DNA from: a virus
DNA length: 21,072 bases
Virus record (IMG/VR): IMGVR_UViG_3300017763_000257
Span: 1-21,072 of that record
Direction: 5' to 3' (one strand)
A model generated the notes under the pieces. The model was not told where the DNA came from, searched no databases, and saw nothing but the letters and a program-made list of their open reading frames with translations. A program made the translations under genes and the position numbers. Shown here piece after piece: positions 1 through 21,072 of this stretch; within the stretch, counting starts at the first letter, position 1, and each line of letters starts with the position of its first letter.

Positions 1-89
1 GCGGGGGGCGCGTGCCGCCGGTGTGGCCGCGGCGGGCCTGGCGGCGCTCTGCTGTTGGGGGGGGGGCGGGGGGGGGGGGGGGGGGGGGG
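1..89. other. A-free, poly-G contig edge, probable sequencing artefact
   Basis: Bases 57-66 are ten G, base 67 is C and bases 68-89 are 22 G. No A occurs anywhere in 1-89 (the first A is at 104). The composition of bases 1-56 (G/C-rich with few T) also differs from the Thr-codon repeat that follows. Poly-G with loss of A is what degrading reads from two-colour Illumina chemistry look like at a contig end. A genuine poly-Pro tract cannot be excluded from this sequence alone. Confidence 0.6.
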
Positions 90-949
90 TTCGTCGTCGT
101 CGGAGGGATCGTTGTCGTGGGGGGCAGCGAGGTTGTCGTCGTAGGCGGCAGGGTCGTTGTCGTACTCGTAGTAGTGGACGTTGACGTAGAGGTTGTCGGC
201 GGGATCGTCGTCGTCGGCGGTAATGACGTAGTGGTCGTGGTGGGCGGCACCGTCGTGGTTGTTGGCGGAACCGTCGTCGTTGTCGTCGTCGTTGTCGGCG
301 GCAGCGAAGTCGTTGTGGAAGTTGTAGTGGTTGGGGGAACCGGGACCGTCGTAGTCGTCGTGGTTGTCGTCGTAGTGGTAGATGGCGGAGCCTCCGTCGT
401 CGTGGTCACCGGGACCGTTGTCGTCGTCGTCGTTGTTGTGGGAGCAACCGTAGTCGTCGTTGTAGTCGTCGTCGTAGTAGTCGATGTCGTCGTAGTCGAG
501 GTCGTCGTGGTGGTCGCTGGAGGGGAGTATCCCTCGGTTGACCAGCTAACGGTTCCTGAGCCTTCTGGAATAACCTCTCCAGATTGCTCTTGGTACGTTC
601 GGAATCTGAGTACATAGTCACCAGCAGGCGGCGTCAGATGCAGCTTCGACCCGTAGCAGTTGTCTTGGTCGTTGTGGTTACCGTCGTCATCGTCGGCAAC
701 GATATTGCCGTCGGTGTCCAATAACCTCAGCCACGGGTCAATCGTGGTCGCAAAATCTAAAGGGCACGCCACATTCGAATTGAACGTGACATGCAGCAAC
801 GTCTCGCCATCAAGAGTCAGGGCGTGGTCGTAATAAGTTTGGTCGGGTCCAAGGGCGACGCTCGTCAAAGCCTGCGCCGCTGGCGCAAACCACGCTGTAA
901 TGTAGAAAAACACCAACAGGGCTTTGCTGGTCCGCCGCCAGGCCCGCAC
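1..949 (-). CDS. Secreted PPC-like domain protein with long Thr-rich stalk (C-terminus off window)
   Basis: Reading leftwards from a GTG at 949-947, the frame stays open to the window edge (316 codons); an in-frame TAA lies three codons upstream, so this is the first possible start, although no convincing Shine-Dalgarno is seen. Residues 1-27 form a classic signal peptide: basic n-region (RAWRRTSK), hydrophobic core (ALLVFFYITAW) and a cleavage site after AQA. Residues about 28-140 resemble a bacterial pre-peptidase C-terminal (PPC-like) beta-sandwich: DPWLRLLDTDG, an Asp-rich loop (ADDDDGN), then LTPPAGDYVLRF. From residue 146 the protein is almost entirely Thr with Pro, Ser and Val for about 140 residues, then poly-Pro. 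Thr/Pro stalks of this kind are common on exported actinobacterial proteins. The product is predicted to be exported from the infected cell; function unknown. The last ~30 codons (bases 1-89) are unreliable because of homopolymers. It could also be a host gene if the contig is chimeric. Confidence 0.8.
   Translation of the reverse strand, partial: MRAWRRTSKALLVFFYITAWFAPAAQALTSVALGPDQTYYDHALTLDGETLLHVTFNSNVACPLDFATTIDPWLRLLDTDGNIVADDDDGNHNDQDNCYGSKLHLTPPAGDYVLRFRTYQEQSGEVIPEGSGTVSWSTEGYSPPATTTTTSTTTTSTTTTTTTTTTTVAPTTTTTTTTVPVTTTTEAPPSTTTTTTTTTTTVPVPPTTTTSTTTSLPPTTTTTTTTVPPTTTTVPPTTTTTSLPPTTTIPPTTSTSTSTTTSTTTTLPPTTTTSLPPTTTIPPTTTNPPPPPPPAPPPTAERRQARRGHTGGTRPP
90..514 (-). repeat. Thr-codon low-complexity tract (stalk of the secreted protein)
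   Basis: About 425 bases made almost only of ACG/ACA/ACC/ACT codons on the minus strand (read as GTCGTCGT on the plus strand), broken by short VPPT, SLPPT and PVT motifs. The tract encodes a mucin-like, extended Thr-rich linker. The reverse strand reads as poly-Val/Gly, which is only its shadow. Such triplet-rich DNA is prone to slippage and to assembly collapse, so its length should be treated as approximate. Confidence 0.9.
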
Positions 950-967
950 GGAGGGACTTTACCAGAC

Positions 968-1402
968 ATGGGAAAAGCGAAACAGAAGGGCACCGCCGGC
1001 GAGAACGAAATCCTCGAGCTGCTACAGCAGGCAGGGTTTACTGACGCTCACCGCACCGAAGCGTCACGAGAATCGCACGACATCTGGTGCGGCCCGTTCA
1101 CCGTCGAAGTCAAGTTCCGTAAAGCGTGGGCGCTGTTCGACTGGATACCCAAACTTCGCAAGGTTGCAGGCGACGAGCCGTGGGTGCTGTTCGCGATCCA
1201 CGGCGACCGCCGCACCGAGAAAGGCCGACACGTCGGACGGGTAGCAGTACTGGACGCAGACTTTGCAGCCGAACTTATGCAGGTCTGGTGTGATACCGTT
1301 TCATCCCGTGGACGCAGCGACCGGGCTACTAACAATACTGACGGTCTTGCTCGTCCCTTGGATGGCGTGGTGCTCAAAGCAGTTGCTGCAAATCCAAATT
1401 AG
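968..1402 (+). CDS. Predicted PD-(D/E)XK nuclease, Holliday-junction-resolvase-like
   Basis: The 144-residue product starts at ATG 968; a GGAGGG at 950-955 sits 12 bases upstream, rather far for a Shine-Dalgarno, but no other in-frame start is plausible. Residues 8-19 (KG..GENEILELL) match the N-terminal helix with a conserved acid (E12/E14), D38 lies in SHDIW, and E47 and K49 form the E-x-K of a PD-(D/E)XK active site (TVEVKF). This layout is that of small archaeal-type Holliday junction resolvases and related phage nucleases. It would cut branched replication or recombination intermediates, helping resolve DNA before packaging; the exact substrate is inferred. After about residue 110 the protein looks unstructured, and that part overlaps the next gene. 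It lies on the opposite strand to almost everything else in the window and starts 18 bases from the divergent secreted-protein gene. Confidence 0.75.
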   Translation: MGKAKQKGTAGENEILELLQQAGFTDAHRTEASRESHDIWCGPFTVEVKFRKAWALFDWIPKLRKVAGDEPWVLFAIHGDRRTEKGRHVGRVAVLDADFAAELMQVWCDTVSSRGRSDRATNNTDGLARPLDGVVLKAVAANPN

Positions 1403-1490
1403 GCTTGCTCGAGGCGAAGAGAACTTTGATCGGGTTCGGGACACGCTGACCGATCACGAAGCCAGGTTGCGAGCGTTAGAAGCGCGTTAG
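1290..1490 (+). CDS. Small single-TM protein with C-terminal coiled coil (holin/spanin-like size)
   Basis: This is a 66-residue product if translation starts at GTG 1290 (AGG at 1281-1283 in front). The frame is also open upstream to a TTG at 1263, and GTG 1308 is an alternative start. Residues about 8-27 are a strongly hydrophobic segment (AATGLLTILTVLLVPWMAW). Residues 35-66 are charged and helical with a heptad-like pattern (RGEENFDRVRDTLTDHEARL). One N-terminal membrane segment followed by a short coiled coil is common among small phage lysis-associated or membrane proteins, but no family was recognised and there is no endolysin in the window. Its start lies within the 3' part of the nuclease gene in another frame, so the two are probably translationally linked. 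Its TAG (1488-1490) overlaps the end of the convergent exonuclease gene. Confidence 0.6.
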   Translation: MIPFHPVDAATGLLTILTVLLVPWMAWCSKQLLQIQIRLARGEENFDRVRDTLTDHEARLRALEAR

Positions 1491-2221
1491 ACATAAGTAG
1501 GTCGAGCAGTAGGCTCAGCCACCCGAGACTTGACCCAAGTACCGCAAGCCATGCACTGAAACCTGCGGTAAGTCATTGTCTTCGTAGCACGCACACCGTT
1601 CGATACAAGCGGTCCGCCGCCACACTGCGGGCACGCATCCGGCTTGTTCATCGCCAACGCCACGTTGGGATGGTTCGGAATCCAAGGGAGGAGTTTGTCG
1701 TACAATTCCTCGGTCAACCGCACGTCTTGAATGTTGTACTTCTTCATCAACGCCCAAGCCTTGTCGTCGGCCATCATGCAGTCACGCCACAAATCAAAGC
1801 CCGTATGCGGCGTCTTTTTGCCGATACCCAACGCCTCGGAAACGTGGGTGAGCTTGTTGGACGGGAACCGGAACTGTGACCGCACTGTCTTCAGCAAGTC
1901 AATGTCAACGTGCGGGGCAGCAGGCGGCAGATCAGCCAGCAGAAACTCACGCTGGAGATGCTTTACGTCGAACGCTTTGCCGTTGTAATGGATCAGGGCG
2001 TCGGCTGAGGACAGTAGCGCGTGTGCTGCTGCGACCATTGCGTCGTGGCCGTCGTGATGATCCGAATAGAACATCACCTTCTTGGAACCGTGCCACTTCG
2101 CAGCAAAGCAGATGACCGAACCGGTCTTCTCGATCTGGTTTAGACCAATGTTCTGGTTCCACAACCCCCAGATGTAACCAAGGTTCGGACTTGTTTCGAT
2201 GTCGATTACGAGTTTCTTCAT
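1487..2221 (-). CDS. DnaQ/DEDD-type 3'-5' exonuclease with C-terminal zinc ribbon
   Basis: This 244-residue protein has an RNase H-like exonuclease fold. The three Exo motifs are visible: VIDIET (D7, E9), HYNGKAFDVKHL (N80, D85) and KYNIQDVRLTEELYDKL (Y162, D166), the Y-x3-D form of the third motif. Residues 197-226 add a zinc ribbon, CPQC...CMAC (C197, C200, C223, C226), likely for DNA binding. No polymerase domain follows, so it is a stand-alone nuclease for replication, proofreading or host DNA breakdown. The ATG at 2221 is chosen because GGGAGG at 2230-2235 lies exactly 8 bases upstream; a GTG two codons earlier (2227) would sit only 2-3 bases from that site. It is the last gene of the long leftward series and overlaps the convergent plus-strand gene by four bases at its stop. 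Confidence 0.85.
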   Translation of the reverse strand: MKKLVIDIETSPNLGYIWGLWNQNIGLNQIEKTGSVICFAAKWHGSKKVMFYSDHHDGHDAMVAAAHALLSSADALIHYNGKAFDVKHLQREFLLADLPPAAPHVDIDLLKTVRSQFRFPSNKLTHVSEALGIGKKTPHTGFDLWRDCMMADDKAWALMKKYNIQDVRLTEELYDKLLPWIPNHPNVALAMNKPDACPQCGGGPLVSNGVRATKTMTYRRFQCMACGTWVKSRVAEPTARPTYV

Positions 2222-2229
2222 ATCCACAA

Positions 2230-2254: not shown

Positions 2255-4108
2255 CTACGGCACAGTCAAGATGCGCAGCGTCATGGTGCCTTCCCACCAG
2301 TCGCCATCAGCCGATAAATGCTCTGGAGACATCGACATCTGATCAATCACTACCGTGTCAGATCGCGACCCTTCCTGATACGTCACAACCCGTTTAGCGA
2401 CCATCAACGCACGCAAAGCGTCATACTCGCCCTGCGGATCCTGCTGCACCGCAGCACCCATACCCCTTGAGGACGCCACACGCTTCTTCATCACAACCGG
2501 CAACACGATCTCGTCAATACGAGTCGGAGCCGGGAACGCCAACAACTGCCACGACTCAAGGTTCGGGCCAGCGGTCGTAGACGACGAGTCGCGCTCCAAC
2601 GTGAACTTGACCGTGTACTTGTCCGACAGGGTGTAGTCAACCGTCTTCGGTGCCCGGTCAGTCAACGTCAACACGCTCAGGTCAATGCCGGTGTCGGGCG
2701 TGAACGTGACCTTGATGGTGCCTTGTACCGGGGTAGCAACACCGTTGTACACAAGGTCGGCGTCGTCGTACGTTTCGCCTGCTTGCTCGTAAGACTGGCT
2801 GCCGGTAACAGCCAACGTAGGCGAGGCACGCACCTCAACCTGTCGCAGCGACTTGTCGAACTGGCTGTTCCAACGCACGTCGCCAACCGTCAACGTGCCA
2901 GACGCAACCCGATCGCCTGACGCAGCGTGACCCTGCACGCCGTTCGCAACATCCACAAAGAACGTCTCGCCATCAACACGAGCAACCCACGTCACGTTCC
3001 CAGGCGTCGAACCAGTCGACACCACATCGGTTGCCCACGCTGGCACCAGAGTGTCAGTAAACACCGACAGGTCAGCCCGGTACACCTGGCCGTTGCTTGT
3101 GCCGAACCACACGAACCGGTCGTCGGTAGCCAACGAGTAGGCAGCGCCACCGTTATCAATAACGGGTCCATAGGTAACGCTTGCGTCTTGGTTCATTGCA
3201 GCGACACGCAAACCCTTGCTAGTTGCAACGATGAGCAGCCCGCCGTATGACGTGATGGCGTTGACTGTTTCGCCTCGAGGCAGATCAGCGACCTGCTGCG
3301 GGCTTGTGATCGCCCCGTCAGACCCGGCAGCAAGGAAGTACAGCGAGCCGGTGTCGTTGCTGTTAGCGGCTGCGTACAGGCCGACAGGGCCGACGCACAC
3401 GTCTTGCCAGACGCTGCCGTGGGTCAGCGAGAACGTGGCAGATCCCAACACAGAGCCGTTAGCTGCGAGCTCCTCGATTGTGTTGGCGTCTAACTCAATT
3501 AGTCTGCCGCCGACGTACCGGAGTTTGTCTGGCTCGGACGACCCCAGCGACGACGGCTGCGTAGTTGAGCCGATGCCAGTCTTTGCCAGATGACGTGCTG
3601 ACCCGTACGCAATGAAGATTGACGTGCCGTCAGACGTGAAATCCGTGATGGTTTCTGGCGTACCTAACGCTGTGACGGTACTCCAAGTAGGCGACGCCGT
3701 GTCAAAGTTGGTTGCGTAATACAGGTTGGTGCCCGAAGCGACGTACATGTAGTCCGTGCTGCCGCTCGTAAACACCTTCATAATCACGTCGTTGCCAGTG
3801 TTGCCCTTGTCCTCACAGATAGGCAGCAGCGACACCTGGCCCTTCGTCCACGGGTCAATGCCCGACGACGTGTAGAACCGGCGACGATCCGAGTCATCGT
3901 TATCAAAGTATTCTTGACCGGCACCGTACGACCAGTCAGTCTGCGACCGCACCCAAAACTGGGTGTTTAGGCGCTGCTCGCCCGCCTCGCTTGACGTGTC
4001 TCGCTGCTCGCGCAAAGTCGGCACAGTCGTGCGACTGTACCCTTCCGTCTCAATCAAATACGACCGGCCGTCAATCGTGACAGGCAGACGCTCCGCAGCG
4101 TGCGCCAT
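2255..4108 (-). CDS. Tail protein with beta-propeller-like repeats (nozzle/hub candidate)
   Basis: This 617-residue protein contains blade-like repeats of alternating beta strands and Gly/Asp turns from about residue 80 to 390, for example DYMYVASGTNLYYATNF, LRYVGGRLIELDAN, NAITSYGGLLIVATSKGLRV and YSLATDDRFVWFGTSNGQV. A separate beta-rich region (about 400-617) contains LPVVMKKRV and ends in TMTLRILTVP. Propeller-containing tail proteins located directly after a connector-like gene are typical of short-tailed phages, where a tubular/nozzle protein closes the tail and carries fibres. The start ATG at 4108 is two bases after the preceding gene's stop. No catalytic motif is seen. It could instead be a baseplate hub component in a long-tailed phage, but the rest of the window shows no tape-measure or tube genes to support that. 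Confidence 0.65.
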   Translation of the reverse strand: MAHAAERLPVTIDGRSYLIETEGYSRTTVPTLREQRDTSSEAGEQRLNTQFWVRSQTDWSYGAGQEYFDNDDSDRRRFYTSSGIDPWTKGQVSLLPICEDKGNTGNDVIMKVFTSGSTDYMYVASGTNLYYATNFDTASPTWSTVTALGTPETITDFTSDGTSIFIAYGSARHLAKTGIGSTTQPSSLGSSEPDKLRYVGGRLIELDANTIEELAANGSVLGSATFSLTHGSVWQDVCVGPVGLYAAANSNDTGSLYFLAAGSDGAITSPQQVADLPRGETVNAITSYGGLLIVATSKGLRVAAMNQDASVTYGPVIDNGGAAYSLATDDRFVWFGTSNGQVYRADLSVFTDTLVPAWATDVVSTGSTPGNVTWVARVDGETFFVDVANGVQGHAASGDRVASGTLTVGDVRWNSQFDKSLRQVEVRASPTLAVTGSQSYEQAGETYDDADLVYNGVATPVQGTIKVTFTPDTGIDLSVLTLTDRAPKTVDYTLSDKYTVKFTLERDSSSTTAGPNLESWQLLAFPAPTRIDEIVLPVVMKKRVASSRGMGAAVQQDPQGEYDALRALMVAKRVVTYQEGSRSDTVVIDQMSMSPEHLSADGDWWEGTMTLRILTVP

Positions 4109-5049: not shown

Positions 5050-5438
5050 TCACCCAACGCATCCCGCACAAGTCCCATGCCACGCTTCCGACCGGTAGCG
5101 GTCGAAAACGTCTTGCCAGAGTTTACCTCATGCTTTTCTTCCGCTTTGGCCTCGAGCCGTGCGGCACCGTTAATTGATGGTGGCTGCACACCGTCTTTAC
5201 GTAGACGCTTGTATGCGTCCATGTCAGCCACCTTCTCCTTCTCAGCCTGTTTTGTTGCCTCAAGGTCGATGATGTTGTTGCGTGACGGGACTGCTGACGG
5301 CGACACATACGGCATGCCCAGCATGCGACCCATCACCGCACCGCACTCCAAGCAGTGCATGTCAGGATCGTCTTTGAATCCATGCACCGTTTCTTCAACA
5401 GCACCACACACTTTGCAGCGGTAGTCGTACCTTGGCAT
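5046..5438 (-). CDS. FmdB-type zinc-ribbon protein
   Basis: This 130-residue protein opens with the characteristic FmdB-family N-terminus MPRYDYRCKVCG, with C8-x2-C11 and C29-x2-C32 (HCLECG) forming one zinc ribbon, as in the short FmdB proteins of bacteria and many phages. Beyond residue about 45 it is charged and helical (EATKQAEKEKVADMDAYKRL), then flexible and basic (TGRKRGMGLVRDAL). The family's biochemical role is poorly defined; nucleic-acid or protein binding is assumed. The gene overlaps its neighbours on both sides (TAATG with the repeat protein upstream, ATGA with the connector-like gene downstream), so it is made together with tail proteins and may act in assembly rather than in transcription. 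Family assignment is firm, role is not. Confidence 0.85.
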   Translation of the reverse strand: MPRYDYRCKVCGAVEETVHGFKDDPDMHCLECGAVMGRMLGMPYVSPSAVPSRNNIIDLEATKQAEKEKVADMDAYKRLRKDGVQPPSINGAARLEAKAEEKHEVNSGKTFSTATGRKRGMGLVRDALGE

Positions 5439-6274
5439 TAGCGAACCTCCACGGTAAACCCAGCGCCAACCAGCGCATCCAATTCTTGTGATGTTAGATC
5501 AGTCGGTGATTCGTGCCCACCTAACAACGTGCGACTAATCGACGTAGGGTCGCCTGGCTGACGGGTCGTAACTGCACCGCTAGTCAGAATGAACACGTTG
5601 CGGCCACGAGGGCCTGGAGTGCGGAACCGTGCCAGACGGCGAGCAGGGTCGTTGGTGTGGTACGGCACCACGTCAATCTGCGGCAGAATGTTCTCGGTAG
5701 TTGGCACATAACGCATCGAGATGTCCAGCGACGGGACCGTGCTTGAGCCGTTGATCTGTGACGGCGCAACCGACACGCCCGTACCTTCGGTAACTGCCGA
5801 GTCAGGGACTGTTACAGTCGCAGCAACAGCCGCAGGTGTAACCGTAACACCAGTGCCTTCGGTGACGGTCGGGTCTGGAATGAGTCCAGAAACGGACACG
5901 GTAGCAACGTTGACTGTGACACCCGTGCCCTCGGTGACGGTGACTGCGGGTAGTGCTGTTGTGCCTGTAACCGTGCTGGCCTGAACCGTGATAACAATTT
6001 CGACGGTGACAGCCGGTGTAGTTGCTGCTGTAGCAATAACACCAGGGGTAACGGTGACGCCTGTGCCTTCACCAACGGTAACAGCCGGGACGCTCGAGCT
6101 CGTTGCAATGACCGCCGGCGTAACGGTGACGCCTGCGCCTTCGGTGACGGTAACTGCGGGTGCTGTTGAGGTGCCTGCGATGACGGCAGGGGTGACGGTG
6201 ACGTTGACTACGACTGTGCCGTCGTACCTGAGTAGGTCTTGACGGTAGTCGTTGGATGACCGGTATGCGGTCAT
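5438..6274 (-). CDS. Beta-repeat structural protein with phage fibre-type C-terminal domain
   Basis: The 278-residue protein has a short N-terminus (about 25 residues, including RQDLLRYDG), seven tandem repeats of about 24 residues (residues about 26-186; core TVTPAVIA-x5-PAVTV-EGTG), and a C-terminal domain of about 90 residues. The C-terminal part (RRLARFRTPGPRGRNVFILT ... LLGGHESPTDLTSQELDALV ... AGFTVEV) resembles the terminal domain of many actinophage small tail/head-fibre proteins. The Val/Thr-rich repeats predict an extended beta structure. Role: probably a virion surface or tail-decorating protein; no enzymatic motif is visible. It starts four bases after the S74 fibre stop and its TAA overlaps the FmdB start. 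Confidence 0.65.
   Translation of the reverse strand: MTAYRSSNDYRQDLLRYDGTVVVNVTVTPAVIAGTSTAPAVTVTEGAGVTVTPAVIATSSSVPAVTVGEGTGVTVTPGVIATAATTPAVTVEIVITVQASTVTGTTALPAVTVTEGTGVTVNVATVSVSGLIPDPTVTEGTGVTVTPAAVAATVTVPDSAVTEGTGVSVAPSQINGSSTVPSLDISMRYVPTTENILPQIDVVPYHTNDPARRLARFRTPGPRGRNVFILTSGAVTTRQPGDPTSISRTLLGGHESPTDLTSQELDALVGAGFTVEVR
5715..6197 (-). repeat. Seven tandem ~72-base coding repeats
   Basis: The units read VTVTPAVIAGTSTAPAVTV, VTVTPAVIATSSSVPAVTV, VTVTPGVIATAATTPAVTV, ITVQASTVTGTTALPAVTV, VTVNVATVSVSGLIPDPTV, VTVTPAAVAATVTVPDSAV and VSVAPSQINGSSTVPSLDI, most followed by TEGTG or a variant. Unit spacing is 24 residues except the third, which is 22. The fourth and fifth units have drifted most. 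Boundaries are approximate to a few bases. Confidence 0.8.
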
Positions 6275-14316: not shown

Positions 14317-15053
14317 TATCGTCCCCGAATCCCCAACGCCTGCATCAACACACCAGCAGCACCAGCGTAATCCATCGCTTTAGCCTCCTCAGGAGCCTGC
14401 TCTCGAGCAAACGCCTCCGCACGAGCACCCACACTGATCCCAGTCGCACCCGACGCTTGCAACCCATGAATCATCTTTACAAACGCCTGCTGCTCTTCGG
14501 GAGTCGCCATACGGCCGGTCACCGACGCAGTGCTCTTCTTTGCAGCGTCCATCAACGCAACCGGATCAATGTAGTTAATGACACGGCCACCGCCCGAACG
14601 AGCCTCAGCCTTCTTGTCAGCCATCAACGCCCGGAGCTCTTCTGGCGACCGGCCAGAGTTCTGCATCAGCACATCAAGGAAATCGGTGCCAAACCCAAAC
14701 TCTGCCTGTTCCTCAGCCAAGTCAATGGCTGAATTGACGCCTGATGTCAGAGCTCCAGGCCGGAACTGGTCGTTGTCATCGAAGTATGAGTCGTAGTCGC
14801 CGATGCCGACAGTCATCAGATCGACGGCAAGTAGCGCCATGTCTTCTTGATCAAACCCGGTGAAGTCAAGGTCTGATCCGTAGATTGGGTCTGGTTCTTC
14901 GCCGTACTCAAGAATAAACGATGTGCGGCCAGGCGGGCGAAGGCCGGTAATGGTTCGTACTGGTTCGCCGTAGCCAATAACAGGGTCGTTGGGGTCCTGC
15001 AAGCCGCCGTACTGACGTTGGTAATTAGCAAACTCTTGTGCAATGCCGTTCAT
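14316..15053 (-). CDS. Structural protein of the giant-protein operon (245 aa), unknown
   Basis: This 245-residue acidic protein has an extended N-terminus with Gly/Pro/Asp turns (YGGLQDPNDPVIGYGEP, LEYGEEPDPIYGSDLDF), then helices. The second half contains SPEELRALMADKKAEA, YIDPVALMDAAKKSTASVTG-RMATPEEQQAFVKMIHG and a C-terminal Ala-rich helix (AGAAGVLMQALGIRGR). The IDP-x5-AAKK...TGR-x-ATPEEQ-x-F motif occurs, as I recall, in unassigned proteins beside large internal proteins of aquatic phages, so a virion role is likely but no function can be given. Its ATG overlaps the giant gene's TGA (ATGA) and its TAA overlaps the next ATG. Confidence 0.5.
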   Translation of the reverse strand: MNGIAQEFANYQRQYGGLQDPNDPVIGYGEPVRTITGLRPPGRTSFILEYGEEPDPIYGSDLDFTGFDQEDMALLAVDLMTVGIGDYDSYFDDNDQFRPGALTSGVNSAIDLAEEQAEFGFGTDFLDVLMQNSGRSPEELRALMADKKAEARSGGGRVINYIDPVALMDAAKKSTASVTGRMATPEEQQAFVKMIHGLQASGATGISVGARAEAFAREQAPEEAKAMDYAGAAGVLMQALGIRGR

Positions 15054-18000
15054 AGCAATCCCTCGAAAGCGTCGTCCTGCACGAACGATTCCCGATCAAG
15101 CCTATCGCGTTCCAAAAAGCGGTCGTAAAGAGGCGAAAACTGCGGACGCATCCCCAACTCTTCCTTCTTTGTTTCCCAGAACGTCTGCAAGTCTTCGTTT
15201 GAGTTTGCACCGATAGAGTCTGAGCCGCCGGCAGCGTCACGGGTCTGCAACTGCCGTTGCACAAACATCCGCAACTCGAAGTATTCAATCAGATGAACGC
15301 TTGAGGGGCGCTGCATGATCTGCGGGTCTTGCAAGCCAACAGCAAACCCTTCCACGACAGCTTTCGTGCGGCGAGCCGAACGAGTGAAATCGCGTTCTTG
15401 CTCTGCCCATTGCGGGTACTGCAACGCCAACTCTGCCTTCTTGGCTTCTTGAAACGCAGCTAACGGACGCATGTGCGCCGAGTTCAGCGAACCTGACATG
15501 CCGGCAGCAATCGCCTCGTCCTGCTTGCTACGCACCAAGTCGCGCAGCTCCGTGTAAGCACGCCACCCCAAATCGGCCTGCGTATCACCAATCGCCTCTA
15601 GCGGCGTCTTACGTTCACGACGGGTCTGGTCGCTGCCAGGAGACAACTCCATGTTCTGCTGACGGCGATACGTCGCCTGCGAGAACACCATCTCCTCATC
15701 AGCCGCACCAACGCCACCAGTAATCCACGCACCAACCTCAGGATGCGCCTGCACCAGATCCTGATGCCGCATGTAGTTCTCTTCCGCATCAATCGACGCA
15801 GCCACACCATCGTTCAGCTTCGTCATGCGGGCAGTCAACGCATAGAAGTCCTCGCCGTACTTGTCGAGGAACATATCGTTGCCGATCAGCGTGCCGTGTT
15901 CCCGCTGAAGCTTCCGAGCTTCCTGCACCAACGGTTCGTACGGCGACAGCAACGTCGTCGAAGTAGGCGAGAACAGGCCGGCAGCAGCACGGAAGATAAA
16001 GAACTGGCCTGCACGATCGTTTGCGAGTTCAACCGCAGCCTGCACCTCAAGGTCGTTGTTCCAGTCAAGCGGTTCGCCAGCAGCAGACCGCTCAACAACG
16101 ATGTCTTGGAACATGCGCTGCACAAGCCGTTCCTTGCTTTGCGACTGGGTGCCGTAATCCAGAAGGGCTTTACCCCACGTCGGCAAGTTGCCGATAAACG
16201 CACGTTCCAAGAACCCGCCCTCAGGATGCCCGAACGGGAACATAAACCCGAACGTCTCCTCAAGACTCGGGTCGGCCAGGATTGCTTCACGAACCGGAAT
16301 AGTAATAAGCGGACCGAACCCTGGAACCGGGGCCTGCACAACCGTGTTCAGGCCGTCTTTCGAGAACCGGACTGTAGCGTTCTGGTCACGCAACGACTCG
16401 GGAATCAACAAGTTCCGCATCGCCGGCGACATTGCTTCGAAGATCGTGGTTTCGTTGCCGTCCTCATCGAACGCAGGACCAAGCGGTCGGAACGCCAGAT
16501 AGGTGCCGGTGACGTTGCCCTCGGCGTCTTCGGTCGTAATTTCGCTAATGCCAAGTGTTTCGGCGTCCCACGGCTTGCGGTAGATACGCACAGCGTTGCC
16601 GACAAACGTCGGGTTCTGCACAGCCAGCCCCGACCAGCGGCCAATTACTTCTTGCCACGCGTTGAAGAACGGCATTGCGTTGCCGACCATTTCGCTGATA
16701 CGAGTGTTTTCAGCTAGGTCGTACATCAACTCACGCACTTCCAACAACGCTGCGTCTCGAGCCTGCTGCTCAATCTCGTTGATATTGCGCTGCGACAACC
16801 GCACCGCTCCGTCGTCGTCGGCAAGCAGTTCAATGCGGCGGCGAAGCTCACGTTCGTACTTGACTCGGAACATAGGGTTACGGGCCAATTCGTCGGTCGG
16901 CAGCGTGCCGAGCATTTTGAACAGGCTTTCGGCGTGTTCTGCTGCGCGTCCGGTCATGTTTCGACGGGCAGAACTTGTATGCGACAACGGTTCGGGGCTG
17001 GTTGCCTTTGCGAAGTTGTCGTAGCCAGCGTCACGCGTTTCTTGAATGCGCTGGTTCAACGACTTGCCAGTATCAAAGCCGGCATCCGGCGACTTCAACG
17101 AATCTGTTACTGCTTTCCACGGCACGATCTCGCCTGCCTGCGCCCGCAAACGCAGATCAGCAAACTGGCCCGACGGCAACACCGTCTCATACTCGTCAAT
17201 GATCCGACCGGCCATCTCTCCGATGCCGCCTTCTGGGATGCTGCCCGTCGGCGTGTTGCTCAAGCTCCGCAACAACGGCTCATCGTTCTCCAACAGTTCC
17301 GTCAACTTCTGCCTACGCACCACCACGTCATCGTTCGACCACACCACTTGGTAGAACTTCTGGTCAATGTCGCGTGACGTGTACTGGTTCATCATGCGTT
17401 CCCACTGCGTCGAGATGTCGCCATCTTCCAACGCATCAAACACACGCCAATCAACGTCCTGATAGCGCTCCAACTGCCGTTGAGCGTCAGCACGGGCACC
17501 CGAGTACACCGCCGACTGCGACCGAGAGGCCGACACGTTCGCACGAATCTGCTCCTGATACCGGGGGTCGTCACCGAAGGCGTTGCGGAACGTCACGCCA
17601 CCGATGTTTACGCCGCCAATACCAGCCTGCTGCATCAACTCTTCAGCAGCATCAAACGCGTTACGGACATCGCTAGCGCCATCAACCTCACGCTGCACAA
17701 GATCCTCAATGTGCGAGGCGTCGTCCTGCAACTTGCGGATTGCAGCAAGGTCGCCGCCGTCAGCGTCCGTAATTTGACGCAGCATCAACTCGGCTTCGTT
17801 ACGCAACGCCCCCGCATAGTTCAACGCAGCCTTACGCTCCAACGCCTGATTGATCCGGCCACGCTTACTCATCAGCGACACAAACCCGTACGCAGCACCC
17901 AACGCCGGGTTACCCATCAACAGGCCGACACCGCCGCCCTTCAACGCAGCGTTGCGTCCTAGCCGGCGCAGATTCGATCGCTTGCCAGCCTGGTTGCGGT

Positions 18001-21000
18001 ACGCCAACACCTTCTCACGGCTCAACTGCCTCACAGCATCCTTAAGCCCTTCGGGGCCAGCCATCTCGTACAATTCAAACAGCGACAGCGACGAAGCTCG
18101 AGTTTGCAGGGGAGCGGTTGGGGTTGCGGCAAGCATTGAGCGTGGTTCGATGCCTAGCGTCAACGCTGATTGGTAATCTGCTGATGCGATTTCGTCTGGT
18201 GTCCAGCGGCCGTACGTCAACGACTCGAGGTAGCCACCTCCGTGGCGCATGTCTGTGATGCCGAGGTTTGTTGGCACATGCATAAGGCCGATGTCGCGTG
18301 CTGGATTCTCGCCTGCAACAGAATGCAAGATGTTGCGCGTGGAATTCGAAGGCGTCCTTGCAAGCTCTCTGCTTCCTGCTCGTCCGAACGCCATGTTCAA
18401 AATTGCTTCGTCCGAAGCGTTAAGCAAATTGGCTACGTTTCCTTGCGTCAGAAACGAGTCGCCGTAAGTGAACTTGCTTCGTTCAAGCACCTTTGGGTCG
18501 AGCAAAACTGTTGCTTCGCCGTAGGTGTTGACGCCGGTCATAGCGATGGCGTCTCTTTCTTTTTTAATAAAAAGTTGTTTTGCTTTGTCTGTCAGATTGT
18601 CAAACGAAAACGAAACATGCGAAGCCATTAACTCGTCAACACGGTCACCCCAGGCAATCCGGTCAGCGTCACTAGCCAACTCGTCAAAGCCAGAAACTCC
18701 GAACTCGTCAAGCAGCACCGGTTTGACTTCTGTGTTGTAAATATTGACGAGTTCTTCTTGGTTCTTGAACCGTTTAAAGTTGCCGCCTCCAGTCGGCACA
18801 CCATCAGCTCTTGCAACAACAGAACCAAAGTCCCTTGTAATGTACTCACGGGCTTGCCGCACATACGCGCCAGGGACAACGACACCAGACGACGGTCGCA
18901 GTTCTGGAGCAAGGTTTGCTGGAGTACCAATCCCTGCTTCGTACTCTTGACGAACATCAAATGTGCTGGACGCTAGTTCTGAACCTTGATCGTGCGTTGT
19001 CTTGTAAACGCCGGACGCTTTAACTTTTGGAACAGTGCCAGGATCCATTGCTACTGCAATGCGAGTATCTGGATCGTTGATGATGTTGCGGAACGCACGG
19101 ATAACGTCTTGTTCGATCTGAGCAATCGGCGTGTTTCTGACGTAATCTAAAATCTTTTGCTCGCGCGCAAGATCAATTTCAAGCTTTCTGTAGCCATCGG
19201 TTACCCGTCCTTGATAAATGTTGTCTCCGTAATTAACCATTTCTTGCATTTGGTTGCGAAGAATTGCGACGGCGTTTTCTAATTCGGAAACAATATTGGG
19301 GGTTTTAATGCCTCCGTCAGCTATTGGCGCGCCTCGAAGCATCCGTTCCAGATTGGCGCTCTCATACTTTTTGGAAGGATTGTTCAGTTGCATGCCATTA
19401 GCGTTATGCCACTCGATCTGCTCCTCCAGCGACAAATCCTCAAAGTCCCAACGGCCACCAGCTTCCTCAAGCGCCTTGATCGTCGCGTTCGTCTCAGCAA
19501 ACTCAACCGTCTTCTCAGAAGGCGCAGACGCCGACACCCTGCCGGCCTCCCGCTGCGTCGCATCGCCCTGCTCCGACAACACCTTCTGCTGCTTCTTCAA
19601 CTGCTCCCGCTCAGCCTTCACAGCATCAGGCATGTCAGCAATCCGACCATGCTCTTTCAACTGTTCATCAAGACGAGCCGTAATCTCATCCAACTGGTCG
19701 GAAACAGTCCGAACGCCGGTCTGCTCACGCAAGATACGAGACAACGCCTCAACATCGGTTGCATCCGCAATCCCGTCAAGGTTGTGCAGCGCAAACGCAC
19801 GACGCAGCTCAGGGAACGCTGTAACAAGGTTGCTCGCCGCCGTCAACGCACCCATGTCAGCCATCGCACGCAACTGCTCGTCCATGCCGACACGCATCGG
19901 CCAGGCAGGCCGCAACAACATGCTACGACGCCACGCTTGCTGCGGACCTTCCAGCACCGGCCGCAGCCGCTTCATTGAACCTCGAGTCGCGTCGCCGACG
20001 GTCACAGCAATCTTCTGCGCGCCGCGACCCTTGCGGGCCTGAGCTAGTTCGACCTGGCGCTGCACAATGTCGTAGCGGGGCTGCACCATTGAGGACTTGA
20101 CCTGCGACGGCGACATGCGGTGATGCAAAACGTAAGTAGCACCGTCCTCAGCTTGCTTGCGAACTGTGACCGTAAAGTCAGCGCCGTCCTCGGTCACACC
20201 AATCGTGCGAGCCTTCTCGCTTTCAGTCATCCACGCAATCTGCTGCTCGTTGTACGAATCAGTCAATGCACGCTTCGTCTTGTCGATCCCTTCGATGCCG
20301 GAATCCCGCAACAGATCATCAAGTCGGTTGTTCAACGTGCGGACAGTGTTTTCATACAACACCGACATGCCAGCAACATCGTTTTGCATCTTCAACGCCT
20401 GGAACGACGAAACCAGCCGACCAGCTTCCTGCGCGTCAACAATCTTTGCGCCGCCGACGTTGATACGTTCAGCCTGTGTCATCACGCGCTCAAACTGGCG
20501 AACCACCGAAGCGTCGTTAAAGAAAATGATTGACTGCGGAACGCGTTCAGTTAGAACTCGAACAGCGCGCCCGTATGCGCCGCCCAACGCGCCGCCGACC
20601 GTGTTCGGGTTAGCAAACTCGCTAACAACATACCGGTCGCCTTGTTGCTCGAGCACCTCAGCGTGCCGACGCAAAATGTTGTCAAGCCTGTTGCCCCACG
20701 GCGTCTGGGCTAAACCCAACGTAGTGCCGTAGATGTCTTTGCCTGCGCCAGCAATGCTTTCAAGGGCTGCGAGCGTTTCGTCTGCGTGTTCCGCAGCGTG
20801 CGACGCAAACGTCGTTGCTTTGTGCGTGCCTAAGTAACGGTTGAGGCCGTTGTCAAAATCAAGGGATATCTGTTGTGACTTGAACAAGGCTTCTCGGAAC
20901 TGCGACATCACAGCCCAGTCCGTTTGCTCAGCTAGTTCACGGAACTGAGCTGCGCCTACAGCGTCGCCCATCTTCGGGTCGTCTAGCGCCTTTCGAATTT

Positions 21001-21072
21001 CTGCCCAGTTATCGCCCTGCATCACCTCACGAAGTTTGTTGGCCTCGCCGGCGACCTCCTCAAGAACCCGAA
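15050..21072 (-). CDS. Giant internal/polyvalent-type virion protein (N-terminus off window)
   Basis: The frame is open through the right edge: a GTG at 21025 has 15 further in-frame codons without a stop before the window ends (reading RVLEEVAGEANKLRE), so at least 2,006 residues are present and the true start is outside. Numbering from 21025: helices at 1-330; LRPAWPMRVGMDEQLRAMAD near 375; a coiled coil at about 435-490 (LDEITARLDEQLKEHGRIAD); a module near 831-860 with TYGEATVLLDPKVLERSKFT then YGDSFL; a Gly-rich hydrophobic segment near 1020-1060 (GGGVGLLMGNPALGAAYGFV) that could insert into a membrane; MPFFNAWQEVIGRWSGLAVQ near 1447; a Pro/Gly-rich region near 1560-1640; helical C-terminus. 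Size, helicity and operon position suggest an ejected internal protein carried in the capsid. No lytic transglycosylase or polymerase motif was found. Confidence 0.65.
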   Translation of the reverse strand, partial: RVLEEVAGEANKLREVMQGDNWAEIRKALDDPKMGDAVGAAQFRELAEQTDWAVMSQFREALFKSQQISLDFDNGLNRYLGTHKATTFASHAAEHADETLAALESIAGAGKDIYGTTLGLAQTPWGNRLDNILRRHAEVLEQQGDRYVVSEFANPNTVGGALGGAYGRAVRVLTERVPQSIIFFNDASVVRQFERVMTQAERINVGGAKIVDAQEAGRLVSSFQALKMQNDVAGMSVLYENTVRTLNNRLDDLLRDSGIEGIDKTKRALTDSYNEQQIAWMTESEKARTIGVTEDGADFTVTVRKQAEDGATYVLHHRMSPSQVKSSMVQPRYDIVQRQVELAQARKGRGAQKIAVTVGDATRGSMKRLRPVLEGPQQAWRRSMLLRPAWPMRVGMDEQLRAMADMGALTAASNLVTAFPELRRAFALHNLDGIADATDVEALSRILREQTGVRTVSDQLDEITARLDEQLKEHGRIADMPDAVKAEREQLKKQQKVLSEQGDATQREAGRVSASAPSEKTVEFAETNATIKALEEAGGRWDFEDLSLEEQIEWHNANGMQLNNPSKKYESANLERMLRGAPIADGGIKTPNIVSELENAVAILRNQMQEMVNYGDNIYQGRVTDGYRKLEIDLAREQKILDYVRNTPIAQIEQDVIRAFRNIINDPDTRIAVAMDPGTVPKVKASGVYKTTHDQGSELASSTFDVRQEYEAGIGTPANLAPELRPSSGVVVPGAYVRQAREYITRDFGSVVARADGVPTGGGNFKRFKNQEELVNIYNTEVKPVLLDEFGVSGFDELASDADRIAWGDRVDELMASHVSFSFDNLTDKAKQLFIKKERDAIAMTGVNTYGEATVLLDPKVLERSKFTYGDSFLTQGNVANLLNASDEAILNMAFGRAGSRELARTPSNSTRNILHSVAGENPARDIGLMHVPTNLGITDMRHGGGYLESLTYGRWTPDEIASADYQSALTLGIEPRSMLAATPTAPLQTRASSLSLFELYEMAGPEGLKDAVRQLSREKVLAYRNQAGKRSNLRRLGRNAALKGGGVGLLMGNPALGAAYGFVSLMSKRGRINQALERKAALNYAGALRNEAELMLRQITDADGGDLAAIRKLQDDASHIEDLVQREVDGASDVRNAFDAAEELMQQAGIGGVNIGGVTFRNAFGDDPRYQEQIRANVSASRSQSAVYSGARADAQRQLERYQDVDWRVFDALEDGDISTQWERMMNQYTSRDIDQKFYQVVWSNDDVVVRRQKLTELLENDEPLLRSLSNTPTGSIPEGGIGEMAGRIIDEYETVLPSGQFADLRLRAQAGEIVPWKAVTDSLKSPDAGFDTGKSLNQRIQETRDAGYDNFAKATSPEPLSHTSSARRNMTGRAAEHAESLFKMLGTLPTDELARNPMFRVKYERELRRRIELLADDDGAVRLSQRNINEIEQQARDAALLEVRELMYDLAENTRISEMVGNAMPFFNAWQEVIGRWSGLAVQNPTFVGNAVRIYRKPWDAETLGISEITTEDAEGNVTGTYLAFRPLGPAFDEDGNETTIFEAMSPAMRNLLIPESLRDQNATVRFSKDGLNTVVQAPVPGFGPLITIPVREAILADPSLEETFGFMFPFGHPEGGFLERAFIGNLPTWGKALLDYGTQSQSKERLVQRMFQDIVVERSAAGEPLDWNNDLEVQAAVELANDRAGQFFIFRAAAGLFSPTSTTLLSPYEPLVQEARKLQREHGTLIGNDMFLDKYGEDFYALTARMTKLNDGVAASIDAEENYMRHQDLVQAHPEVGAWITGGVGAADEEMVFSQATYRRQQNMELSPGSDQTRRERKTPLEAIGDTQADLGWRAYTELRDLVRSKQDEAIAAGMSGSLNSAHMRPLAAFQEAKKAELALQYPQWAEQERDFTRSARRTKAVVEGFAVGLQDPQIMQRPSSVHLIEYFELRMFVQRQLQTRDAAGGSDSIGANSNEDLQTFWETKKEELGMRPQFSPLYDRFLERDRLDRESFVQDDAFEGLL

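Follow-up and report, generated by a model that had tools for sequence, protein, structure and literature searches.

Little is known of how phages break the complex envelopes of actinobacteria, and most accessory lysis genes of actinophages have no assigned role. Several described phage proteins offer points of comparison. Unimolecular spanins are single exported proteins of the lysis cassette that span the envelope from the inner membrane to the outer layer, with an N-terminal lipoprotein anchor in the outer membrane. The T4 antiholin RI is a small, soluble exported protein with a cleavable signal peptide that partners the holin T by binding its large periplasmic domain. The superinfection-exclusion proteins T5 Llp, lactococcal Sie2009, and Ltp of phage TP-J34 are phage encoded, exported, and membrane attached, and are small or lipoproteins. 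LysZ of Corynebacterium phages CL31 and Cog is described in two reports as a 177-aa protein with one N-terminal TMD and an N-in/C-out topology, encoded downstream of the holin; during lysis by the phage, its proposed targets are the membrane-anchored glycopolymers of C. glutamicum (PMC13056207, PMC13148394).

The DNA analyzed here (the window) is an entire IMG/VR contig, 21,072 bases long, and represents part of the genome of a tailed phage. It carries at its left end the 5′ part of a gene for an exported stalk protein (2..949, minus strand), which in the phage continues past the contig to its true 3′ end. In the window's relatives, this gene is followed by one for F13, a small 2-TM protein. 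Judged against these accounts of LysZ, the stalk protein is similar in being an actinophage lysis-cassette protein that would reach outside the membrane beside a 2-TM holin and may act on envelope glycans, as proposed for LysZ. It differs from LysZ, as described there, in having a signal peptide, a predicted C-terminal anchor, a length of ~400 to 1100 aa, a place upstream of the holin, and a folded head of sugar-binding type. Because topology, size, gene order, and folded head all differ, it is not a LysZ.

The stalk protein shares with unimolecular spanins a plan in which one exported protein would span the envelope from the inner membrane to the outer layer, and it shares their setting in a lysis cassette, the order in the window's relatives being stalk gene, F13, r1t holin, and endolysin. 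Unlike spanins, it has no lipobox (its AxA site is followed by Leu, Ser, or Phe, with no Cys at +1), and its hosts appear to be Actinomycetota. It has no homology to RI, although both are exported with a signal peptide and RI, too, is partnered with a holin. Llp, Sie2009, and Ltp have phage origin, export, and membrane attachment in common with it but lack a lectin head, a stalk, and a 2-TM partner.

The truncated open frame and its head

The earlier note on this DNA had described a minus-strand frame of 316 codons. The frame (949..2) is indeed open over that length from a GTG start at 949, but its last ~30 codons are an artefact. The frame itself is real. The same head (the N-terminal 144 residues) is encoded at the same genomic place in 22 further viral contigs, with 59 to 99% identity, which answers the question of whether related phages carry this gene. 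The dN/dS values for the head against the relatives L002, L003, and L006 were 0.09, 0.19, and 0.10, respectively, indicating purifying selection, and together with the 22 contigs they show that the frame is more than chance. The relatives have a stop codon 2 to 4 codons upstream of the same GTG or ATG start, which supports the start at 949. The plus-strand frame at 3..617 (poly-Val) is merely the antisense of the ACN codons.

A chimeric junction at ~950, raised earlier as a possible flaw, is excluded by an independent, collinear contig, L001, which is 99.9% identical to the window over 10,812 bases that start far upstream, include 950, and stop at window position ~138. The two sequences part inside the Thr stalk at window ~137, and window ~92 to 137 resembles the contigs L007 and L018; the divergence points to an exchange of modules at the repeat or to a misassembly. 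Below position 92, the window has no match in any relative and contains homopolymers of 10 G (57 to 66) and 22 G (68 to 89). Window 1..91, which has no strand assignment and lies outside the gene, is therefore a sequencing or assembly artefact of the contig end, and the last ~30 residues of the frame (NPPPPPPP...GTRPP) are not protein and are to be discarded. Gene callers will run the frame on through this G-run sequence. The true length of the protein in close relatives is ~400 to 440 residues.

Residues 1 to 27 (MRAWRRTSKALLVFFYITAWFAPAAQA; 869..949, minus strand) form a predicted Sec signal peptide by composition and hydropathy scan, in which a basic n-region and a hydrophobic core precede an AxA site, and these features are kept in all relatives and in every head type. 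Residues 28 to 145 (515..868, minus strand) form the head, which has an acidic loop (DDDDGNHN) and invariant cysteines at positions 62 and 98. An AlphaFold2 model of the head was a beta sandwich (pLDDT 82), and VIA-align matched it to 5sv5 (Z 9.6, rmsd 2.1 over 89 residues) and to ColG CBD3b (1nqj; Z 9.3), with the DeCLIC N-terminal region alongside. Modeling thus supports a PPC (pre-peptidase C-terminal) beta-sandwich fold for the head. The remainder of the gene in the window (92..514, minus strand) translates as a Thr/Pro-rich stalk, its final part like the stalks of L007 and L018. The earlier picture of an exported, surface-type phage protein with a signal peptide, a PPC-like beta domain, and a Thr/Pro stalk is borne out by the hydropathy of MRAWRRTSKALLVFFYITAWFAPAAQA, the AlphaFold2 model, and the translation.

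In fold, the window head is like the beta domains of the PPC/DVUA0089 family (NF038127), which occur in proteins that bacteria secrete. It differs from them in scoring below the profile cutoffs (14.0 bits against 25.9 for PPC, PF04151; 25.0 against 29 for NF038127) and in its phage context, with an anchor and the F13 partner. A related head, in L055, exceeds the NF038127 cutoff (33.6 against 29). Other loci carry other heads: PA14 in L073, L092, and L149; an L-type lectin with an SUEL lectin in L085; an SUEL lectin in L132; a beta-helix in L142; and fn3 modules in some. Heads are thus exchangeable among the PPC, PA14, L-type lectin, SUEL lectin, and beta-helix types. Most of these folds bind sugars in characterized proteins, and glycan binding by the exchangeable heads is probable on grounds of fold. 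Searches of cultured phages with the window head, two related heads, and one related C-terminal end gave no match.

The C-terminal module and the F13 partner

Complete relatives with the window-type head are 385 to 495 residues long and consist of the signal peptide, a beta head of ~115 residues, a Thr/Pro stalk of 130 to 190 residues, a helical acidic region, and a C-module. The C-module has the conserved motif EVKEAFEEEVDVFAGATExYVPxGSxVxVEDRRAIIAV... and a hydrophobic helix, and ends in a basic tail of Pro/Gly-rich character. In the AlphaFold2 model of this C-domain, six short helices lead through a loop to a hydrophobic helix of 18 residues; the pLDDT is ~90 up to the hydrophobic helix, which is less certain. 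All 77 motif-bearing sequences had a mean hydropathy of 1.42 to 2.72 over the 17 residues past RR/RK and a net charge of at least +2 in the last 15 residues; the helix is borderline hydrophobic in the window's close kin. The hydrophobic helix and basic tail are a predicted membrane anchor, which would give an N-out topology. A C-terminal anchor, which the earlier note proposed to look for beyond the contig end, is thus found, as a prediction, in the full-length relatives.

A fold search with the C-domain returned only Z scores below 5, and profile searches against PDB sequences gave no match. Pfam and NCBIfam matches to the helical region (PgdA_N, Glycos_trans_3N, and MgtE_N) were weak or generic and were rejected. 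No function-assigned family in Pfam, NCBIfam, or PHROGs spans the whole stalk protein or F13. An LPXTG motif before a hydrophobic stretch is absent from the window's relatives. A stalk-type protein elsewhere (L151:1-945), encoded directly before F13, has an LPVTG sortase-like C terminus in place of the C-module and would be a phage-encoded surface protein, possibly anchored by sortase.

F13 is ~58 residues long in the window's lineage, and its start usually overlaps or abuts the stop codon of the stalk gene. Its PHROGs family, phrog_29041, is without an assigned function, and the protein has conserved polar residues at T15, T25, S27, and H45. A search of annotated phages with the C-module found a single record, Actinomycetia phage DSL-LC01 (OQ999401), whose genome was placed among actinobacteriophages by its authors (PMC10611076). 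Its 944-residue protein (WJZ48438) has a signal peptide, beta-rich regions, Thr stalks, the C-module, and then F13 in the same frame; among cultured phages it was DSL-LC01 alone that matched, through the C-module and F13. A further scan found 21 relatives, and stalk and F13 were fused in 16 freshwater loci, including DSL-LC01, and split in one (L092). Every one of the 37 loci in which the 3′ side is present carries F13, either directly after the stalk gene (21 loci) or fused in the open frame (16 loci).

To avoid circularity, we also searched in reverse by F13 alone, with a profile built from an 8-sequence alignment, and kept the best 80 of 411 contig matches. Many of these 80 loci are near-identical, so that independent lineages are fewer, and they span several unrelated genome types. 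A stalk-type open frame lay upstream on the same strand in all of the best 80, and each of the 60 that were complete had a hydrophobic N terminus and a T/P/E-rich stalk. The C-module pattern was present in 71 of the best 80; the unmatched loci, when read, had a variant form or the LPVTG anchor. The gene fusion and the invariable adjacency are strong evidence that the stalk protein and F13 work together.

In the window's lineage, the r1t holin (family F3) lies at L001:11484-11714 (PF16945, 49.1 bits against a cutoff of 26.9, E 6e-13), followed by the endolysin (PG_binding_1, phrog_2649). Other lineages have the order stalk, F13, F19, F3. F19 carries the PHROGs label "nuclease" plus a holin match and looks like a small membrane protein. 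PHROG 26427, so labeled, matches small two-TM proteins of lysis cassettes (L044 to L052, the F19 family), and the label is probably a misnomer for a holin-like family. Among the best 80 of the 411 F13 loci, 62 have F3, F19, or F1 within the flank, immediately downstream in about half of the 80, and 41 have a holin- or endolysin-type gene at most 500 nt downstream. About half of these 80 have no recognized lysis gene within 500 nt; in six freshwater loci of this kind, the pair lies among tail-type genes, as judged by eye from the translations. By gene order, the pair would be a late-region accessory that is often, but not always, part of the lysis cassette. What the earlier note missed is located past the end of the contig: the predicted C-terminal anchor, the obligatory 2-TM partner, and the frequent placement in a lysis cassette.

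WhiB genes, which to our knowledge occur only in Actinomycetota and their phages, are present in 17 of the 22 related records. The nearest relatives of the capsid in the annotated collection are LanE43-AprF5, LanE43-AprE7, and Streptomyces phages such as Stella, the first two, whose records there carry no annotation, being cultivated Planktophila phages (PMC10202952). WhiB and the capsid relatives point to Actinomycetota hosts, in keeping with the actinobacterial flavor first noticed in the protein. Among uncultivated phages, the pair is present in many contigs of marine and freshwater origin; it was not detectable in LanE43-AprE7, LanE43-AprF5, or Stella.

Possible roles of the pair

The frequent adjacency to lysis genes makes it probable that the pair targets the envelope of the cell at a late stage of infection. 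Our preferred reading, which we hold tentatively, is that the stalk protein is a Sec-exported, membrane-anchored actinophage protein with a probably glycan-binding head that works with F13 late in infection and helps to open the envelope at lysis. It would be made late, most likely from the tail/lysis region, and exported via Sec. The long Thr/Pro (or Pro/Glu) stalk would carry the head through the cell wall, the C-terminal helix and basic tail would hold the protein in the membrane, and the head would grip the outer glycan layer. While the endolysin acts, the stalk protein, with F13 as next gene or fused part, would help to disrupt the glycan layer or the membrane, a role comparable to that of spanins in diderms or LysZ in corynephages.

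The lysis role is weakened by the roughly half of F13 loci that have no lysis gene within 500 nt, six of them among tail-type genes. The analogy to spanins is weakened because the hosts are probably monoderm, where classical spanins are not needed. The cultivated capsid relatives have no detectable pair, so actinophages in general can lyse their hosts without it. If the stalk protein is a lysis factor, the LysZ idea would extend to glycan-specific, wall-spanning tethers. A bolder version, which we regard as doubtful, is a widespread and undescribed envelope device of actinophages in two parts, in which a modular, wall-spanning lectin stalk with exchangeable heads for glycans is wired, through gene overlap or fusion, to a dedicated 2-TM holin-like protein, coupling recognition of surface glycans on the outside to opening of the membrane or lysis on the inside. 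The pair offers a handle on such questions in its swappable head, its stalk of measurable length, and its fused partner.

The main rival, a serious one that is quite possible, is that the pair masks receptors or excludes superinfection. Held by its anchor, the lectin-like head would bind the host's own surface glycans in cis and conceal the receptor of the phage. Progeny or competing phages would then no longer adsorb to the infected cell or to its debris, and the 2-TM partner would be an anchor or insertion helper. Export and predicted membrane anchoring of the stalk protein are consistent with this idea, and heads that swap among sugar-binding folds are what would be expected if they track receptor glycans. 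Tail or tail-fiber genes are also neighbors of the pair in several freshwater phages and lie upstream of the stalk gene in the window. The frequent placement of the pair directly before holin and endolysin argues against masking, however, and an obligatory holin-like 2-TM partner with T15, T25, S27, and H45 conserved exceeds the needs of a plain anchor. If masking is nevertheless its function, the pair would represent a large family of lectin-based superinfection barriers.

It is improbable that the pair is a lysis-timing sensor, in which F13 would be a holin or antiholin gated by the stalk protein and the head would report the state of the cell surface, as in the pairing of T4 RI with holin T. 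That the stalk protein overlaps translationally with a 2-TM holin-like protein, or is fused to it, would fit such a sensor, as would the adjoining second holin type (F3/F19), which suits a holin/antiholin pair; yet F13 offers hardly any extracytoplasmic domain for binding, and its PHROG carries no functional assignment.

The earlier suggestion of a host-derived cargo gene, here taken as a surface protein for adhesion, aggregation, or protection from grazing, now seems very unlikely. Proteins secreted by bacteria often have Thr/Pro stalks and the PPC fold, and the L151 variant ends in an LPVTG-type anchor. Against this, a profile-derived scan and a scan of 84,980 species genomes with a 54-base degenerate pattern found no bacterial gene for the C-module, the pattern being strict enough that divergent host versions could escape it. 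The sole match to the pattern was a contig of phage origin that had been placed in a Flavobacteriales MAG. In addition, F13 has hundreds of phage copies, and the gene keeps its place in many phages. The matched contig, L059 (CALKUW010000343.1), carries endolysin, stalk gene, F13, F19, and r1t holin; since its relatives infect Actinomycetota, its binning is probably an error. Least likely of all is a part of the virion, decorating tail or head, whose hydrophobic N terminus misleads. Tail genes adjoin the stalk gene and beta-sandwich heads occur in phage fibers, but a signal conserved in every head type and a predicted C-terminal anchor are unexpected in a part assembled in the cytoplasm.

Other genes of the window

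The divergent neighbor of the stalk gene encodes a RusA-like Holliday junction resolvase (968..1402, plus strand; phrog_244, E 7.5e-08), which starts 18 bp from the stalk gene start. Overlapping its frame on the same strand is F18 (1290..1490), a 66-aa protein with an N-terminal TM and a coiled coil, a layout that resembles one-TMD lysis proteins. In L048-type phages, F18 follows the stalk/F13 pair, and the endolysin/holin pair is located elsewhere.

On the minus strand, the stalk gene is last in the order 1,991-aa protein, capsid (PF13252, phrog_1357), tail-fiber-type proteins, exonuclease subunit, stalk gene. The exonuclease gene (1487..2227, minus strand) is of the DNA polymerase exonuclease subunit type (RNase_H_2; phrog_403, E 2.4e-85; PF13482, E 2.4e-14). 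Upstream of it lies a gene for a 617-aa homologue of Streptomyces phage Stella gp47 (2255..4108, minus strand; phrog_11667, E 2.2e-55; BLASTP E 6e-35). A 278-aa protein of VTVTEGTGVTVTP repeats (5438 to 6274, minus strand) adjoins the tail-fiber-type genes. The 1,991-aa protein (15050 to 21025, minus strand) had no Pfam match; in Stella, a gene of comparable size (gp10, 4.9 kb) lies upstream of the capsid gene.
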